Shown here: in pieces, positions 39,667-50,694 of the stretch
Layout of the letters: every line of letters starts with the position of its first letter
How positions within the stretch are numbered: the first letter of the stretch is position 1
Assembly (NCBI GenBank): GCA_018287875.1
Contig: JAGVVL010000022.1
Span: 1,302,001 to 1,366,000, forward strand
DNA from: Nigrospora sphaerica
Taxonomy: Eukaryota > Ascomycota > Sordariomycetes > Amphisphaeriales > Apiosporaceae
Reading direction: 5' to 3'
DNA: 64,000 nucleotides
Made by a program: the position numbers and the translations under genes
Notes under the pieces: generated by a model
What the model was told of the DNA's origin: nothing
What the model saw: only the letters and a program-made list of their open reading frames with translations
Database searches by the model: none

Positions 39667-41898
39667 TGGCGGGACCTGTTTGCTCTTTTTTTTCGGGTTT
39701 CTCACTTTTCACGATGAATACGCATAAGCGGGCCGGCGTTGCAGACGTGCTTACCACGGGGTTTGGGCCTCATCGTACAGGAGAGCCAGGCGGGTTTGCT
39801 GTAGGTTTACGGAAGGGGACTGTTTCACGGGTCGGGCGTTACGGGCGCATTTGTTTAGACAGCATTGCATACCTGCATCAGTATCACACGATATCAGGAT
39901 GGCGGGCGGTTAGAGGAGAGGGAATATACCCAAAAGCCAGACACATACATACACACGCACAATTACATACACACAATACATACGGACTACATGTTGCACA
40001 CACACGCACACACCACACACCACACAAAATCTTCCGTACAGCCTTGGACTCTTCAAGACACACAGTGGGTGGCGATATACCCTGCCTGTGGGTTCGGGAA
40101 GACGTACCGACGTGGCCCACGATGCAGCACTGGGGCGTTGCACATGTGTGTCATGGAGGCATGCGTCGGGTAGCTGCGAAGGTGCGAGCCAAGCCCAGCA
40201 CCGACTGCTTGGGTTCTGGATTCTGGACGGCCCCAGCCGTGGGATGCAAGGCCGCAACATCTGTACAGCGTTGCCACTGGCCTTTTTTTTTCTTCCCCTT
40301 CTGCTCCTCCTTTGCCGGGGCAGGCTGGGAAATGGCATGATTTTGGGACGAGGGCCCCGAGCGCTCTCCCCTCCTCCCCCATCTGGGTTTGCGCCCGCTT
40401 CTCCGGCCCCCAGGGGAGAGGGGTTTTCACGTAGTAGACGAGGGCGGGTAACGGGCCGGCTCTCGCAAACCAGCCAGCCAGAAGAGGCGGTACAGGGGGA
40501 CGGGGGGGGAGGGCAAGCGGATACCCGCAACTGGCGGGAGACCCTTTAATCCCTGTGCGAGATGAAGAGGGGGGTCCGCTTTTCCATTTTTTCCCACTGG
40601 GTTTCCCGCGGCCCCCAACAGCCATGCATGGCTGGGAGGTTTTTGTGGTGACGATGTTGAAGAAAGCGGGGGGGCTTACAATTTCAGGAAATGTCACTTG
40701 GAATAAACAAAGGGTGCCCTTCCCCCCAAGCGCCCCGATCGGGAGGGCTGAGCCGAGAAACTGGGCCCGTCGCGCCAACGGACGGGCGTGGAAGGAGAAC
40801 GGGAGGGGGCGTAGGGGGAACGGCAGATGACGAAGGGCGCGCCGCACCGGTCGGTCGTCTAGCCCAGATGCGGCTATCAGGTCGCGCCAGGGGCCGCGTG
40901 CCGAATCACATGCAGCCCCGGGCGACCGTGGCATCTGTCCCGGCGGAAAGGATGCGAGAAGGGTAAGATGCCTTCCTGCCGCCGACGGGTTGCGCCATGG
41001 GCACGAGGGGCATGCGCATCAAGGGACTTTGGCTGGTGGTCGGCGACCCTCTTCCCCCATGTCCCGGGGCGGACTTTGGGGCGAGCGTTGCCGGCCGGGC
41101 GCACCAGCGGTTGTACGAATCACTGTAAGTACGGGGAGGGGAGCTGTACACTGATTGTGCAGGCCACGACCGAGGAGGCCGGGCAGGGTTCTGGGGCCTG
41201 CTCGGGTCAAGAAAGCGGTTCGTTCGGTAGGTCGCCGTCCTGTAGGGTTACCCCCCCCCCCTTTTTCCTCGTTTTTCTTGTCTTGCCCTCCCATGACAAA
41301 TGCTCTTGACCCAAAAGTGTTCGCCGACCTCCCTTCCCACAGAAAAAGAGGGGGAAGACCGGTGGAACCCCTCGCGGGGTCCACAACAAAAGCCCTTGCA
41401 TGACCGGGGGGTCCTAAGTCGAAAACGACTTGCTCTTCCTCCCCACCGGCCCACGAAATCGAGAGGCCAGGAGATGCGCACCCAGGCCCAAGGCCCCGGG
41501 TTCCGTCATCCGATGGCTCCGCCGTATGGGCAGTCGCCGGGATCGTGGGGGGACTATTGGGAAACGTTGCACGGCCAAACCAGGGGGAGACGGACGAACA
41601 TGGACAAAAAGAGCAAACCCCCCTCCACCTTCCTCCCGTTTTCCGCTGGACAACGACGGCCCGCCCTGTCCGGCCAGCAGTAACGTTGCTATTTTGGACA
41701 CCCAGCCACGACGGGGCTGGGCCTTTCCCTTGTCTTATCTGACGCTCTGTTCTCTGGTTCGGGGGTATCCGCCTTCCGGCCGCTGTGGCGCGGCTGTGGC
41801 ACGGCTTTCTTCACCCATGAAAGAGAGTCGCACCCCAGGAATCCACAAACAAGCCGGCGAGACGCCCTCACTGTCCGATTTCGCAGCGCAGCAGCGCT
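39667..41898. other. Intergenic with CA/TA microsatellite
   Basis: Contains an imperfect ACACAT/CACA tract at about 39943-40024, then GC-rich low-complexity DNA. The long minus-strand frames here (for example 40053-40934) have biased composition and no domain. Confidence 0.5.
39943..40024. repeat. Imperfect CA-rich microsatellite
   Basis: Alternating ACACAT, ACACAC and CACACC units over about 80 bp. Confidence 0.8.
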
Positions 41899-42328
41899 GG
41901 TTAAAAGCCGATCTGATATTTCGACAAGGACAGGGCCGCGCAGTTCACGAACGTCGACTTGCCTGTGCCCTGCCGGCCATGATTCCCAAGACACACCCCA
42001 ATGGCCCAGCAACTTGAATACCGCTGTCTCCGAAAGTGACTACGTTCCTTTCCAGGAATTTTGTAACGCTGGAATTCCTGTTCGACGGGATACCGAGGTC
42101 CGGTAAAGGCTTGGGGTTCGTCAGAAACAAGGGATCGAGGCCGAGCGAGGCCAGAGGCGGCGGGTTGAACGTAGAGGCCCCCCGGTTGAGCGTAGAGGCG
42201 CCCGCTGGTAAAAAACCCGCATACCCCAGCTCTGTCTTCCATGACGTTGCCCCCGTTGGGAGTTTCCCGTCGTTTTTAGAAGAGCCTCGGGTTCTTGAGT
42301 AGTCGACATCGGCTTTCTCGCCCGTCAT
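41899..42328 (-). pseudogene. P-loop (G-domain-like) gene fragment, frameshifted and truncated
   Basis: From an ATG at 42328 about 125 protein-like codons lead to VTFGDSGIQVAGPLGCVLGIM. The next frame reads GRQGTGKSTFVNCAALSLSK, a convincing Walker A loop (GxxxxGKST). Adding one base at the GGCC after ATG would join them as LGIMGRQGTGKSTF. After that only about ten codons remain before a stop, so switch motifs and the rest of a GTPase or ATPase domain are absent. A TATA-like stretch lies about 125 bp upstream. I read this as the 5' remnant of a P-loop NTPase gene, possibly an AIG1/G-domain type. The family is uncertain. Confidence 0.38.
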
Positions 42329-42862
42329 GGTTGCCTGTGCCGCGGGCCGAGTAGGGTTCACAGTCAACAGTGGCAGAATTCGGCAATCCTGGAAGGGGAC
42401 GAAGTCGATGAACTTCCATTCGATATCACGACTTTCGTCTTTTCGTTTTCATAATATATGGAACTGATTGGATGGCCAGAGATCAGGTGATGACTCATCC
42501 AAACTTGGACTTTAAGATCACGGCCTGAATACCCAGAATCCTCCAGCCATGCGGCGGTAGTAAGCGATTGGGCAATCCCTTCTGCCTTCCTCTCCGCTTC
42601 TCCCTCCTTTAAGCTACATTTCCCTCTATTCTAGTCTCGGCTCCCGAGGACGGCTTATGTTTCAACAGTCGGTAAGCGAGCTACGCCTACAGTCTACTTT
42701 AGTTTCTACCTCAGACTGGCTGCTTCCTACCATATTCCTATGGATGATCTCTTATCCCAAAGTTCTCAAATTTGAAAGCATATCTACCGAGCCAGGGTGG
42801 GGAATTTATAGGCGATCCTACTCGACCCTCGCCTCCCATGAAACTTGAAGCGAGCTTACAGT
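42329..42862. other. Intergenic, no gene seen
   Basis: No supported gene. A minus-strand TATA-like stretch occurs at about 42451-42459. Confidence 0.45.
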
Positions 42863-43905
42863 TCAAAGAAGTTCAGAGCGGCGCCGGTAATCGCCCTCCA
42901 TCTCGTGGTGGCCCGGTACGACGGGGTGCGGGGGATAAGACGACGGCGCCGCAGCATAGGGGGGGTGGTGGGCGAGCTCGGCGCGCATCTCCTCGGGGCC
43001 TTGGCGGGCGGCGGCCCGAGGACCCGGTGGCTTCCGCCTGCGCCGCCGCAACACGAGGAAGACGGCCGTGGCCGCGAGGAGGACACCGACGCCGACGCCG
43101 ACGCCGACGCCGATGCGCACGCCCGTCGACAGGCCGTCCGAGGGCCGCCCGGCGTCCGGAAGCGCGCCGCCGGAGGATCCGGGGTTCCCGTCTGGGGATG
43201 CGGGATCGGAGGGAGGGCTGGTCTGCGGCGGGGGGTCAGCGAACGTCCTAGGGTTGGTGCGAGGTGGTGGAACGGAAAAGCCAGATAAAAGGGGGGCCGG
43301 GCCGCGTTGGCGCAGGCGGGGGATAGGGGTTGCGTACCGGCGTCGCGTAGACGAAAGCGACGGCAAAAAGGTGGGCGGGCGTCCCTATGTCGGCCCGCCC
43401 TACGCTCGCTGTTGATGATACCATGTCAGTCCAGGTAGCATCAACACCCACGCGGCTGCTAAACATGGAGGCGCATCGGTAGTAGGAATGCCCCGAAAAC
43501 GGGTCCGCCTCGGAGTTGTAGCAGGAGAAGGCCAACGCCCTGCGTTTGCTTGTGAGCCGGCTTGCCTCGGTGACCCAAAGGGGGGAAACCGAATAAGGAA
43601 CTTACTTACGTGGGGCAGCAGACCACGGCCTCGGGCGCCCAGCGGCAGCCCGTCGGAACCGGTGTATAGGCGGATGGGCACCCGGTGGCTGCAAACGTGG
43701 CGTCGGTAGCCCAGCCGGGCGGAAGACATTCGCTGGTTTGCGCAGGGCCGCCGAGGACGAGGCGCCGCTGGTTTGCGCCCCATTGCCAGACATAGTATCC
43801 GGCTTCGTTCAGATCGCAGGCCGGTTGGGACGGACTCCAGTTCAGCGGTATCGTCGGCGTGCTGGCGCCGGTGGGGCCGCCGGCGCTGGTCGGGCCTGAC
43901 GCCAT
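42863..43905 (-). CDS. Single-pass membrane protein with cysteine-rich ectodomain
   Basis: A 285-residue protein from three exons: 43905-43610, 43539-43338 and 43222-42863. Introns are 70 bp (GTAAGT, branch CTCAC, CGCAG) and 115 bp (GTACGC, branch CTGAC, CGCAG), and phases agree. The N-terminal half carries Cys motifs in the order CDLNEAG, ECLPPGW, GCPSAYTPV and VVCCPT, a pattern seen in many fungal cell-surface proteins of unknown function. A Pro/Ser/Gly-rich stalk follows, then a membrane helix with a striking GVGVGVGVGV start, a RRRRR stop-transfer signal and a short cytoplasmic tail. The layout is that of a cell-wall sensor-like protein. No N-terminal signal peptide is visible, so an upstream exon may be missing or the protein inserts by its internal helix. 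Confidence 0.72.
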
Positions 43906-44683
43906 CGCGGGACTGGCCGGTGCCGTCCTTGCCGTTTCGATGCAATGTGGTTTCCCCAGAAGGAGGATTAGCGGGAGGGGGGAGGTGGGATGAAACGCAA
44001 GATAGAATGCAAAGTGCCCTTGATGTAGCGACGCCCAAGGGATGGATACGTATGCGAAGCGAAGGCCAAGAGGTCACCTGGTCATCGTATATCCTCGGCG
44101 GGCCTTGCCGTTGGTGCTGTGGCACTTACGGGCCATCATCTGGGACGTTTTCTTCCTCGGCGCTCACTGTCATAGGCTGAAGGCCCGCAACTTCGCCATT
44201 CAGCTGAACAACCCCCGCTTAGTATGCCTTGGCGAGCCAGCACGCGGAGCCGCCCCATCCTATACTACTTCCGTTTCTCATACTTGAGTCGCGCTCTTCT
44301 AGCTTGAATTACACTCTCGTCTTGTAGACTTATTGCCTTCACTCTTCAGTGCGGTGCCAGTTTCGCCAAAACTTACTTCGTGTTTTCTTGGCTATGGGGA
44401 TAGTGATACAAATAAAAACAAAAGGCTACTCCTTCCTTCCATGCGAAAAAATGCCCAAGGGTGCCGGGCCCAGCGCTATGCGATGTAATGCCGTAAATAA
44501 GATCTCCCAGAACCGGAAAATGTGAATCCCAACGCGCCGATATGTACCAGAATTCAAAACGCCGTCTGTGCCCCCTTTTCTCTCATGAACGTCGGCCCTT
44601 CTGGGCAAATACAATCCTCGTCTTTGCAGACTCGTATATATATATATCACCACACAGCCCCGCCCCCTTAGAGGTATAGAGGC
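43906..44683. other. Intergenic, short TA microsatellite
   Basis: Between the membrane protein's 5' end and the 3' end of the repeat precursor gene. It includes a TA dinucleotide run at about 44635-44647. No gene is seen. Confidence 0.5.
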
Positions 44684-45745
44684 TTACAGCATGCCGCGCT
44701 GCGCCATGGCGCGTCGCTGCCATCCGCGCTTCACGCTCGTAGCTTGGATGGGCTTGTCGGTGTTGCTGCGCTTGTTCCAGCCACGCTGATCCTCTGGCTG
44801 CAGGGCGGCATCGTCGGCGCGCTTGTTCCAGCCGCGCTGGTCTTCGGGCTCGACGGCGGCGGCTTCAGCACGCTTGTTCCAGCCACGCTGGTCCTCAGGC
44901 TGAATAGTGGTGGCTTCGGACCGCTTGTTCCAGCCGCGCTGGTCTTCGGGCTCGACGGCGGCGGCTTCAGCACGCTTGTTCCAGCCACGCTGGTCCTCAG
45001 GCTGAACAGTGGTGGCTTCGGCGCGCTTGTTCCAGCCACGCTGATCTTCGGGCTCCAGAGCGGCGGCTTCAGTACGCTTGTTCCAGCCGCGCTGGTCTTC
45101 GGGCTCTAGAGTGGCGGCCCCGGCGGAGACACGGTTCCAGCCGCGCTGGTCATCGGCATGGCGCTTGTTCCAGCCGCGCTGGTCCTCGGGCTCCAGGGTG
45201 GCGGCTTCGGCTCTCTTATTCCAACCGCGCTGGGCGTCGTCGTCACCCCTCTTGTTCCAGCCACGTTGGGCGTCGTCGTCGCCGCGCTTGTTCCAACCGC
45301 GCTGGGCGTCGTCGTCGCCGCGCTTGTTCCAGCCGCGTTGGACACCAGTGGCGGTCATCTGCTCGGTGCCGTCGTCCTCGCTGGCGCCACAGTAGCAGGC
45401 GAAGGCGATGCCGCTGTCCTTCATGGAGACGAGCAGACCGCCGGGGCCGGCGCCGTCACAGCGGCGGGCGACGCCGTCATCGGCGGCATCGCGGACGTCG
45501 GCTGGGCGGCACGCGGCCGGACTCGCCCCGCTCGTCGCCGGCGCCTCGACGGCCCAGACTCCGACGGGATCGGCGACGCGGATGGGCGCCCCGTAGGCCA
45601 GGCGGCCCGGCACCGTTCGCGCCGACGTCGACACGGGGAAGAAGTAGACGCCCGCCCCCAGCGAGGGCAGCGAGAGCGGCAGGTGGGCGGCGAGCTCGGC
45701 CATGGCGGGCGAGGCGGCGAGCAGGAGGTTGACCGTGGTCTTCAT
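44684..45745 (-). CDS. Kexin-processed repeat peptide precursor (RiPP/KEP-like)
   Basis: A 353-residue intronless precursor. The N-terminus (MKTTVNLLLAASPAMA) is a plausible but short signal peptide. Residues 17-135 are a leader with no recognised domain. Residues 136-326 hold 13 copies of QRGWN; 12 are followed by Lys-Arg, the Kex2 site. Copy 6 has only Arg (QRGWNRV), so it would stay joined to copy 7. Two spacer types occur: GDDDA (three identical 12-residue units) and acidic ten-residue spacers of the form AEAAAVEPED, giving 17-residue units. A degenerate RGWQRR closes the array. Kexin cleavage would give peptides ending in QRGWN after Lys/Arg trimming. The layout matches fungal KEP/dikaritin-type precursors such as those of ustiloxin or epichloecyclins, but the core is not one I know. 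No DUF3328 (UstYa-like) tailoring gene is seen in the window. A TATATAA box lies about 276 bp upstream. Confidence 0.85.
   Translation of the reverse strand: MKTTVNLLLAASPAMAELAAHLPLSLPSLGAGVYFFPVSTSARTVPGRLAYGAPIRVADPVGVWAVEAPATSGASPAACRPADVRDAADDGVARRCDGAGPGGLLVSMKDSGIAFACYCGASEDDGTEQMTATGVQRGWNKRGDDDAQRGWNKRGDDDAQRGWNKRGDDDAQRGWNKRAEAATLEPEDQRGWNKRHADDQRGWNRVSAGAATLEPEDQRGWNKRTEAAALEPEDQRGWNKRAEATTVQPEDQRGWNKRAEAAAVEPEDQRGWNKRSEATTIQPEDQRGWNKRAEAAAVEPEDQRGWNKRADDAALQPEDQRGWNKRSNTDKPIQATSVKRGWQRRAMAQRGML
44768..45340 (-). repeat. Coding tandem repeats of the peptide precursor
   Basis: Three 36-bp units (GDDDAQRGWNKR) are followed by mainly 51-bp units (ten-residue acidic spacer plus QRGWNKR). 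The 36-bp units differ only at a few mostly silent bases, which implies recent duplication. Confidence 0.93.
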
Positions 45746-46020
45746 AGGGGGCTGGTTTTTAGCGGGAGATCCCAGGCTGCAGGTGGTGGTGGTGCGTAGC
45801 TGGCGAGGGGCAAGAAAGGAGGTGGAAGCGGAGGACGAGACGGATAAGGAAAAGGTGCGCTTTACAGTGCGGTGTGTATCAGTATCGTGATGATGGTCTG
45901 TGGTGCCCTTGCGAGTTGAGTGGTGGTGGCTTGCTGGAGGTCGAGAGCGATGAGGGTTGTTTGTTGTTCGATGATCTGATGGTAAGGTTAGAATCCTTCC
46001 TCGACGGACTATAAGAAAGG

Positions 46021-46027
46021 TTATATA
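46021..46027 (-). promoter_or_regulatory. TATA-like element of the repeat precursor
   Basis: TATATAA on the minus strand about 276 bp upstream of the ATG at 45745, implying a long leader if used. Confidence 0.4.
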
Positions 46028-49000
46028 CAGGATGCGTCGACCATGCTGGGCGAAGCGGTCCGAGATGGCATCATGGTTTTGCTCGGATTGGGGGTTGACA
46101 CCGGCTCAGAAACGGGAGGCTATGTCGACGGCTTACTGGGCACCGTAACGGAAACGGGGTGGTGAATCCTTCGCCAGGGCGGAGGGATCACGGGACGGGA
46201 GTGGCTTGGGAAGATTTGGGGGGGTCTCTTCCAAAGGGGTGCGCAGCAATGGTAAAGAGATAGGTCTGCTTGTGTGCGTATCGGGTTGCTTAGTCGTAAA
46301 TAGCCTATACCAATCTCACCGAGAGCCGGGTTCCAAAAGTAGCAAAATGTGCCCTAGGGGTGGTGGTGGCTGCCTCGAGGGGGGGGACCTTGGGAAACAG
46401 GGGCGTTTTGAGGCTCCCCTATGCCTCGCTCGCAGCGGGCCGAGGGGTCGGGACGCATACGATTGGTGCAGGAAGATTGCAGTCATGGTGGTGTTAATGA
46501 CCCCTGTCCGCAGCCGCATCCTTCGCTTAGACCCTGCTGGGTACCTATAAACAGCAAACCCTGGTGGAATGGGCGTGATGGGGCATGGGACCCCACAGGG
46601 CTGACCGGGGAGGCTCAACCGACGCAGGCTGTGAAAGAAAAGTAAGCGACAGGCATCTGCAGTTCCCGGTATAGCATCTTTTGGGGGGCACGGTCAAGAG
46701 CCACATTGGCTGCGCTAAGCGCGAGGGACATCCCGCAGCCGCGAGGCCGTACCGGTGACGAGATGGCCAGCAGAGAGCGTGCGATGCCCAAGGCTGTAGA
46801 GGTAGGCCGCTGTATGCGGAGACTGGAGTGACTGCATGCTTACCTCTGTCCTCCCTAGGTGTAGTCGCTATGGCAGCAAGCCCGAGCCTGAGCCCGAGTC
46901 CGGTCGAGGGCGCATCGTAGTTGCATAGGCGAGAACTTGGTAGGCGAGCCTACGATACCACCCTCCATGGGCCGAGGGTGAAGGCTGGTTGGGCCGATAG
47001 ACGCACCAAGTCAGGTTTGAAAGGATGCTGCAGAATAGACGCACAGGGTTGGGATTGGGACACATGGTTTCTCAGCCAGGACTCTGCACCACGTCTAGGT
47101 AGCGTGGCTGGTGCGCTAAGGGATCCCGAGGACCTGGTTAGTGCTTACGCGGTTGCCATTTCGGTGGTCCGCCAGTAAGCAAAAAAGTACAAAAAAAGAA
47201 ACCCAGCATTTGGAAAGCACAACTGGCCAATGGATGCGCCGCTGCGGCACGTCTAGTGCTGACAGAACCCGACATGGGAGTCGACAGGTCCATAAAGAAA
47301 AGAGTAGAAGCAGCGTGGAAATGGACAACGCCAATTGAACGCACATCTCTACCCATACGTGTTCTACGCACACGCACACACACACACACACACACACATG
47401 TTTACCTACACGTGTTCTACACTAACAAACACACTTTTTGCGCATAGCCCTATGCATGCGGGCATGCGGATGCCCCCTGCAGAAAATCCCCTGCACATGG
47501 TAGAGCCGCAGTGTGCACAGTCATTGGGATGCATGGACGAGGTGAGAGCAGGTGCCATGACGGTGTAGGCACGTCTCCCCAATTTAGGCACTGCCGTCAG
47601 ATGGGAAACCGGCAATTTGCAACCGCCGTTCCCTTTGACCGTGAGAGTAGGAGAATGAGAAACAGGGGGGGAGAGAGGGAGGAAGCGAGAAAGGGAGGGA
47701 GTGAACTGTCTCTTCCTCCAGTCGCCCGCTTGCCAAGAGGAATGGCACGGTGGCGTGCGGCCCGCACCGACGAACTTGTTCGTCTGGTTTTCCTCGAATC
47801 CTCCTTCCTTCGTCTCTTCTCCAAACAGATTACTACGCCGTCGCCTCTCACATGGAGCCTATGGTGTCGCGCTTAAGGGCCAGGATCGCTAGCTGCTAGT
47901 TCCCTTCCCTTCGGCTGGGAACGAGAGTAGGGGTATCCATTCGTTGCATGATCTAAGTACCACCCCATTCCATGGGCCCTTTTCCCCCCACGCCGGCCGA
48001 CAAGGCAGAAACGCTGTGGTACCACGCAGCCCTACCGTCCAGCCCCGTCAGCGGGTGGGGAAAGACAGGAAGAAAGTGCTCGGAGATTGAGCTTCGATGC
48101 AATTCTCGCCCACGCCGGGCGCAGCCACGGGGAAAAGAGGATTTGCTGCTGACTGGACGGTCCGGACGAGGCGGATGGTAACCTGGTGCCTGAGACCCGC
48201 TACCAAAGGTCGGCTACATTCTATGCGACCTCTTTCAACCTGCATCTGACAGGGAGCGCCACCCGAATGCCCGGATGGGAGATCAGTGTAAAAGGCGCCC
48301 GGTGCGCCCTGTGCCGTTTCGTCATACGGCTCCGTCATACCGGACGCGGCTGGGCTGGGGACATGGCCGCTGATGGTTGTACCCGTGGACGGGCTTGCCG
48401 GTACCCTGTGTAACGCCCATCCATCTCTACCCGAACGCCCCCACGTACACCCCTTTGACGTCTTGCCAATCGACATAGATCAACTGGGACGTGAGTAAGT
48501 CCGAATCCGCAAAGGGCCCCCACTGTTGCGAGCTGTTCGCCTTGCCCTCGGACTTGGAGGGGTCAGGTGCAGATGATCCTGACTCTCTCCTCCCGAGGCG
48601 AACGCTTGCCCCAAGTTCCTGAATGCTGCCGTGCCATTGCCGCCGGCTTCAGACATCAGATTGATAGGCTCCAATACCATGGGTGAGAATATGGCTCCTG
48701 TTCCATCTCCAGAAGCTTCGTGCGTGCCCGTAGGAGGCACGCATCTCGTCGGTCTTCCGACCCTTGAACAGACGGATCCGGTGACCAGTGCGAGAGGGGC
48801 CGACGGCCTGCACCTTGCGCGTGCTGCCTGACCTTCCCACTCTGTTCTCCCTCTTTCTCGCGGCTGCATGGGGCTCTCGGCGGCTGGGTACGGCAATAGG
48901 GACGACCGATGGAAACAGCAGAACAGAACCAGACACCGATATCCGGACCTGCTGGGCTCCTATGATGCAGCCGGTGCCTGACATGGCGCATCGGGATCCC

Positions 49001-50694
49001 TGCTCTGGCGTTGGTTGGCGGGAACCCGCAAGTGCCGGGCTTCGAAGGTTCATACAGGCCATGTTCTTTGTCGGTTGCGTCTTCAGAGGTGCGTCTGGTC
49101 AAAACCGCCGGCATGGCACCGCAACAGGAATTGCGGTCGGGGCTGGCGACCTTGAATTGACGGCGCGTTCTCTCTGTTAAAGTTGCACCGCTTAAATTGG
49201 CAGACAAACCTTGGAGAACCTGGTTGGCGTTAGCCACGTCCAGCACCGTCTCATCGCGTACCCACGGCTCGGCCGGGATCCCCGGATCGTCAGGCAAACG
49301 ACAGCTTGCCAATACCTACTCCATCTCACCGACATCTAGGCGAACCTGAGGATGGCGGGAGACGCCCGGCGCTCTACCCCTTCAGGGAAAAGTCGGGCGC
49401 TCATGATTTATGAAGTGGCACCATTCTCCTTCGGGCCGGGCAGTGAGGCGGGAAACAACCAGCCGCTCCTCTCTGCCATGGTCGAATAGGCCCCGCATTT
49501 GCAGACAAGCAATTCCACAAGACGGGCCAGCCCGGGATGCCGAGTCAAGGGGCCCGGTAGCGCTACTGCTGAGTTCCATAGCAGCAGCAGCTTCAGCATT
49601 GTGCGCTCCGTCGTTTTGCGTCTTCCCCCTCGTCCCCGCACCGAAGGGCGACGGTAAGCAGTGGCCCCCAGCTGGGCGAGGCAGACAAAGAAACACGCAT
49701 CACGAGGCTCTGGGGCAGTGACTTCTTGTTGCTGCGCCCCGGGGATGAGGTGAAGAAAACCACAGCTGCGGCTTTCATACTCGTCTTTTGCCAGCTGCAA
49801 AAAGTCTATTACCCGTCACCGGGCCCAAAAGCAGGCATGTTGACCGGCGATCGCCATTTCTCCGCAGGAAGAAAACCCCACACCGCCTACATCTCCGCAT
49901 TTCCATATCGTCGATGTTTGCTCACGCCCCCGCGCCGTAGCCTACTCCGGGGAAAGGGGAGAAATCAATGGGTAATGATGGGCGGTGATGGGCTACGTGA
50001 GCTCCTCACGGCCCAAGACTTCAGGCTAAATAGGCTTTCGCCCTCCCTTACCCCTCTGGCCCGGTGTTCTAGCTCGCACCGTCTCGTCTGAGGAGGGAAA
50101 CATGGACCCGATATGAGCGTCATCAAACATGCCGCCCGTCTGCGGCGTGGCAGGCCTAACGGCGGACTATCCGGGAAATCTGGCGCGGGGATCGCACGTT
50201 CTGTATGTGTATGCATGTGGGCGATTACTAGCGATACGACCATCGGGTGAGGAGGCGATCCGGCCATTGGCTCCTCGTCTTCGGCCCCTGGGCAGGTCTC
50301 AACGACCGGCAGGGACAAGGCCTGCTTGCTGGCATCATCTGAGGGGCCGCGGGGGCGCACGCGCGCGCCCGATTGGCGCTGCTATCGAGCAAGCAACTTC
50401 GGATGCGCGGAGCTCTGCTGTGTTAGCTCCAGGGTGCGAAAAGTCGGGGAAAGCTCGCGCTGTTTCGTTGCTTGTGGCTCTAGCATGAGGTGCTTTCGTT
50501 TGTAGCTTGCTAAGCTTTCTACCTCCCTCGTATCGGTCCCCTCTCGAACGACAATGCGCCGGCAACATAGCTATCCGCCGCCCCTCCCCTCGCAGTATGG
50601 TTGACTTGTCCGGCCATGGCCCGGGTCAATACTCGCGCGAGAAAGCCCCGTGGGGACCGAGGCCGAGCCATGATGTCCCTCGAAAGCCTCAGGG
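46028..50694. other. Long intergenic region, no gene seen
   Basis: About 4.7 kb upstream of the peptide precursor and of the GH3 gene. It contains a perfect CA repeat. Open frames of up to 218 codons on the minus strand (48480-49312) overlap each other in several frames and show no domain. Confidence 0.45.
47369..47398. repeat. (CA)n microsatellite
   Basis: Near-perfect CA dinucleotide run of about 30 bp with a single G interruption near the start. Confidence 0.9.

Follow-up and report, generated by a model that had tools for sequence, protein, structure and literature searches.

A putative Kex2-processed repeat protein with an invariant QRGWN core in Nigrospora sphaerica

A single-exon coding frame on the minus strand (44684..45745) of the Nigrospora sphaerica DNA stretch analyzed here, 64,000 nucleotides long and referred to as the window, is predicted from its sequence to encode a precursor that is probably a Kex2-processed repeat protein (KEP), yielding linear peptides that end in QRGWN. 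A precursor of the KEP type had been proposed in the sequence-only reading, and it is supported both by the anatomy of the protein and by the finding that the changes in its core codons are exclusively silent. The coordinates, strand, and counts of that reading were reproduced: QRGWN occurs 13 times and is followed by Lys-Arg in 12 of the 13 copies. KEPs have been defined by a signal peptide and at least three repeats of at least 8 amino acids between dibasic sites (PMC7329392). The precursor has more than the minimum of three tandem repeats between dibasic sites, each at least 8 amino acids long and none exceeding 100 amino acids.

The frame encodes 353 amino acids plus a stop codon and is supported by its GC3 profile and by pN/pS values in the six frames. 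GC3 is 0.27 to 0.67 in the four 30-codon blocks upstream of the ATG, 1.0 in the first 30-codon block downstream, and 0.67 to 0.93 in the next ten, and this sharp rise at the ATG (45745) supports that start as well as a single exon. A possible TATA box (TATATAA; 46021..46027, minus strand) was noticed by eye ~280 bp upstream of the ATG and could be a chance occurrence. Residues 1 to 16 (45698..45745) form a likely signal peptide, MKTTVNLLLAASPAMA, judged by eye from an early Lys, a subsequent hydrophobic stretch, and an A-x-A preceding Glu17, with Ala at positions -3 and -1. This is followed by a pro-region of 119 residues (residues 17 to 135; 45341..45697), which contains four Cys residues and one internal Arg-Arg site, and by the repeat array with the 13 cores (44768..45340). 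In the C-terminal tail, the sequence KRGWQRR (44711..44731) appears by eye to be a decayed repeat copy. All of these elements lie on the minus strand. No Pfam family scored above its cut-off in the precursor, including the pro-region, and a single-sequence structure model had a mean pLDDT of 45, a quality too low for use.

The array has periods of 51 and 36 bases. The first QRGWN core directly follows the pro-region, and the spacers that follow KR are 4, 5, or 10 amino acids long. Copy 6 is followed by Arg-Val instead of KR, and copies 6 and 7 are separated by 13 amino acids, with KR missing there. The short spacers are GDDDA, present in three identical copies, and HADD, present once. In an alignment, the eight long spacers each span ten residues and end in PED; Arg-Val-Ser precedes one of them, at copy 6, which lacks KR. 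In 8 of the 13 copies, the invariant block is longer than QRGWN itself and reads PED-QRGWN-KR.

Across all 13 copies, variation among the core codons is exclusively silent (pS, 0.462; pN, 0), whereas residues 1 to 8 of the eight long spacers also carry replacements (pN, 0.201; pS, 0.436; pN/pS, 0.46). Since the PED of these eight copies likewise varies only silently, PED-QRGWN-KR can be regarded as the conserved block of the long copies. For the 51-base unit of the long copies, pN/pS was 0.25 in the sense frame, the lowest value of the six frames and the only one accompanied by zero stops; the other five frames gave values of 0.39 to 6.91 and at least one stop each. The probability that all of the minimum of four core changes would be silent by chance under random mutation is roughly ~0.001 to 0.0024, a modest test, as the figure depends on four distinct codon changes, and homogenization among the copies could add to the silent-only pattern. 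The sequence-only reading described an invariant core with variable spacers, a mark of selection on the released peptide; this observation was reproduced, with the refinement that the three GDDDA spacers are identical. As no relative was found, the constraint on the core is visible within the array alone.

The following processing route is proposed. The precursor would enter the secretory pathway, a kexin would cleave on the C-terminal side of Lys-Arg, and Kex1 would then trim off the Lys-Arg, in line with the published model of a Kex2 cut after KR and removal of KR by Kex1 (PMC9769878). One kexin-type P_proprotein match was identified in the genome (positions 1 to 57 of 86; 67.6 bits, above the cut-off), and in Aspergillus oryzae lacking the kexin KexB, ustiloxin B was barely detectable (PMC4740483). 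The predicted Kex2 fragments, including KR, comprise ten of 12 or 17 amino acids, one of 29 amino acids spanning copies 6 and 7, and one of 47 amino acids with copy 1. Twelve linear products would result, each with QRGWN as its last five residues. Ten of these would measure 10 or 15 residues and be acidic at the front and basic-aromatic at the end; the others would be a double product of copies 6 and 7 and a long one that retains a portion of the pro-region. In this proposal, QRGWN would be the active part and the acidic spacer a pro-segment, which is perhaps trimmed further.

In Coprinopsis cinerea, a KEP peptide derived from the nonrepetitive C terminus of the KEP has been detected both with and without an acidic DDDPE front (PMC9769878). 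For the precursor described here, an additional cut at the acidic spacer, exposing QRGWN, is possible by analogy. An N-terminal pyroglutamate, also raised in the sequence-only reading, is not expected directly: the predicted Kex2 products all carry spacer or pro-region sequence at their N termini, which would first have to be trimmed away. Trimming by STE13 is unexpected, as XA or XP is found at only 1 of the 12 KR sites. The clear core and its silent-only variation make both the products and the expected masses predictable, the computed [M+H]+ values being 660.32 for QRGWN, 643.29 for pyro-QRGWN, 1133.46 for GDDDAQRGWN, and 1642.75 for AEAAAVEPEDQRGWN; HADDQRGWN (1098.47) would be a product only if the copy 6-7 product were split.

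A homologue search with the whole protein gave nothing at an E value of ≤1 among the 7996 candidates scored, which were those sharing the most words with the query; such a search may drop a relative having only the core words in common. Residues 1 to 135 likewise gave nothing at an E value of ≤1 (1999 candidates). As a control, a 262-residue piece of Ste2 searched against the same collection retrieved six Apiospora species (59% to 64% identity) and two further records (91% to 92% identity), which shows that the collection includes proteins from related fungi. The source fungus probably belongs to Apiospora or is closely related to it, and its ITS resembles that of Apiosporaceae. Conservation of the core in relatives, the check proposed in the sequence-only reading, was not found at this threshold with either the whole protein or residues 1 to 135. 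Orphan status is common in the KEP class, given that 2560 of the 7878 KEPs in the Umemura survey had no homologue (PMC7329392), and by sequence the precursor would be an orphan within a class of secreted peptides that is widespread among fungi and still largely unexplained. It shares with stand-alone KEPs (Umemura 2020; Le Marquer 2019) a likely signal peptide, near-identical units, and dibasic sites, and resembles them also in having no detected relative. The conserved motifs named in the Results text of Le Marquer (PMC6339444) do not include QRGWN, and no mention of QRGWN or EDYAIG was found in the main texts of open-licence papers. A short resemblance to the end of an arthropod neuropeptide was set aside, being too brief to carry weight.

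The 51.6-Mb genome (33 contigs) was also searched with the precursor, which gave five rows, one for the gene itself and the other four for weak matches. The best N-terminal match (L021) covered 63 residues at 43%, with an E value of 0.0097 in the own-genome search and 2e-9 in a four-locus search run without low-complexity filtering or composition correction; because the stretch that holds it is A/G/P rich and has a 603-codon frame opposite, the match was taken, without proof, as due to chance. The match at L020 falls on the antisense of another repeat precursor, that at L023 is the Tyr-repeat locus, and L022 is the fourth. Elsewhere in the genome, a second likely secreted repeat precursor was observed on contig C10 near 406.3 kb (L065, from 2157, plus strand); its units read APGPSPG-GHGR, and Arg-Arg occurs at some sites.

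The precursor could instead be that of a dikaritin-like ribosomally synthesized peptide, cut in the same way but with its core cross-linked through Trp, the UstYa-type enzyme responsible having its gene elsewhere in the genome; we consider this unlikely. With the dikaritin precursors UstA and PhomA it has in common a likely signal peptide, repeats, and cores with ED directly before and KR directly after them, the last in 8 of the 13 copies. According to a published description, ED and KR flank the UstA cores and are likely recognition motifs (PMC6514808), and the PED-QRGWN-KR arrangement of the eight copies corresponds to the flanks reported for the precursor of ustiloxin. Five copies, however, lack ED, and, unlike in UstA and PhomA, there is no Tyr in the core for an ether cross-link, Trp being its sole aromatic residue. 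The genome contains 52 matches to the UstYa HMM, counted as pieces of exons rather than as genes, but the nearest one on the contig is 109,881 bp from the gene and the second nearest is 121 kb away, whereas in KEPs with a nearby UstYa gene (22% of 7878) the mean distance is 3.09 genes (PMC7329392). The HxxHC motif was found only twice in the unspliced frames of the window, once in a 127-codon frame 32 kb from the gene and once in a 15-codon frame 14 kb from it. Of the dikaritin-type assignment suggested earlier, the ED-core-KR flanks of eight copies therefore stand, but a core Tyr and a UstYa match within 109 kb were not found; with no core Tyr and the nearest UstYa match ~110 kb off, we do not class the precursor as a dikaritin. 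A possible dikaritin-type locus was observed on contig C5 near 4261150-4261422 (L066, from 3139, minus strand), where Tyr-containing repeats, AELDADLAYNKPAAVAR, whose units lack KR, are located 1.8 kb from a UstYa match.

No UstYa domain was identified in the 10 window frames scanned against Pfam, out of 49 listed long frames. The Pfam neighbors are a GH3 glycosidase, an ankyrin protein, a Zn2Cys6 factor, a flavoprotein, a metallo-beta-lactamase-fold protein, a sugar transporter, a hemerythrin-domain protein, a sulfotransferase-domain protein, and an alcohol dehydrogenase; a P450 fragment that scored under its Pfam cut-off was also seen among the window frames. In the ~10 kb around the gene (window positions 40300-50600), the only other frames of at least 70 codons with coding-like GC3 are short. 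They are an 80-codon frame (45648-45887, plus strand) that overlaps the precursor start on the opposite strand and a 73-codon frame at 48430-48648 (minus strand).

It is less likely still, indeed highly improbable, that the gene encodes an alpha-type mating pheromone that has diverged in sequence and is recognized by Ste2. The genome has one Ste2 match (L018, 1501-2286), and ascomycete alpha-pheromone precursors have the same architecture: a secretory layout, a repeated peptide, and KR sites. In addition, three alpha-pheromone DNA patterns gave no clustered repeats but 1, 10, and 17 scattered hits (controls with reversed patterns, 0, 8, and 13), and a second motif copy was absent at all 27 inspected hit loci; in this search, a canonical gene that is single copy, differently spaced, or intron bearing would be missed or look like chance. 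Single pheromone-like copies were nevertheless seen, namely, CRTRGQSCWRR in L051 and WCIGVGEQCWRR in L055. The MAT1-1-1 HMM had no match in the genome, which by itself does not show absence. Sordariomycete alpha pheromones have two conserved cysteines (PMC6339444), whereas QRGWN, an invariant core of five residues, has none, and the XA/XP signature of STE13 follows one KR site only (HA; counted by eye). By sequence, then, the earlier judgment that this is not an alpha-type pheromone holds, on the basis of the missing core Cys and also because 11 of the 12 sites lack the STE13 signature.

A repeat protein that is secreted uncut, or a neutral minisatellite within a frame, would fit the 51- and 36-base periods and the lack of detected relatives, but the retention of KR in 12 of 13 copies and the exclusively silent changes in the core and PED make either exceedingly improbable.

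A KEP releasing linear QRGWN-ending peptides thus remains the preferred reading. On a more speculative level, a short peptide that lacks Cys and has QRGWN at its end may, in this lineage, have replaced the Cys-pair alpha pheromone as the Ste2 ligand, or QRGWN may form the backbone of a Trp-cross-linked dikaritin made with an unclustered UstYa-type enzyme; we regard this pair of ideas as rather doubtful. KEP peptides are widespread in fungi, and their function is for the most part without explanation. With a Ste2 present and no canonical ligand precursor recognized by the three patterns, N. sphaerica would offer a simple ligand test.
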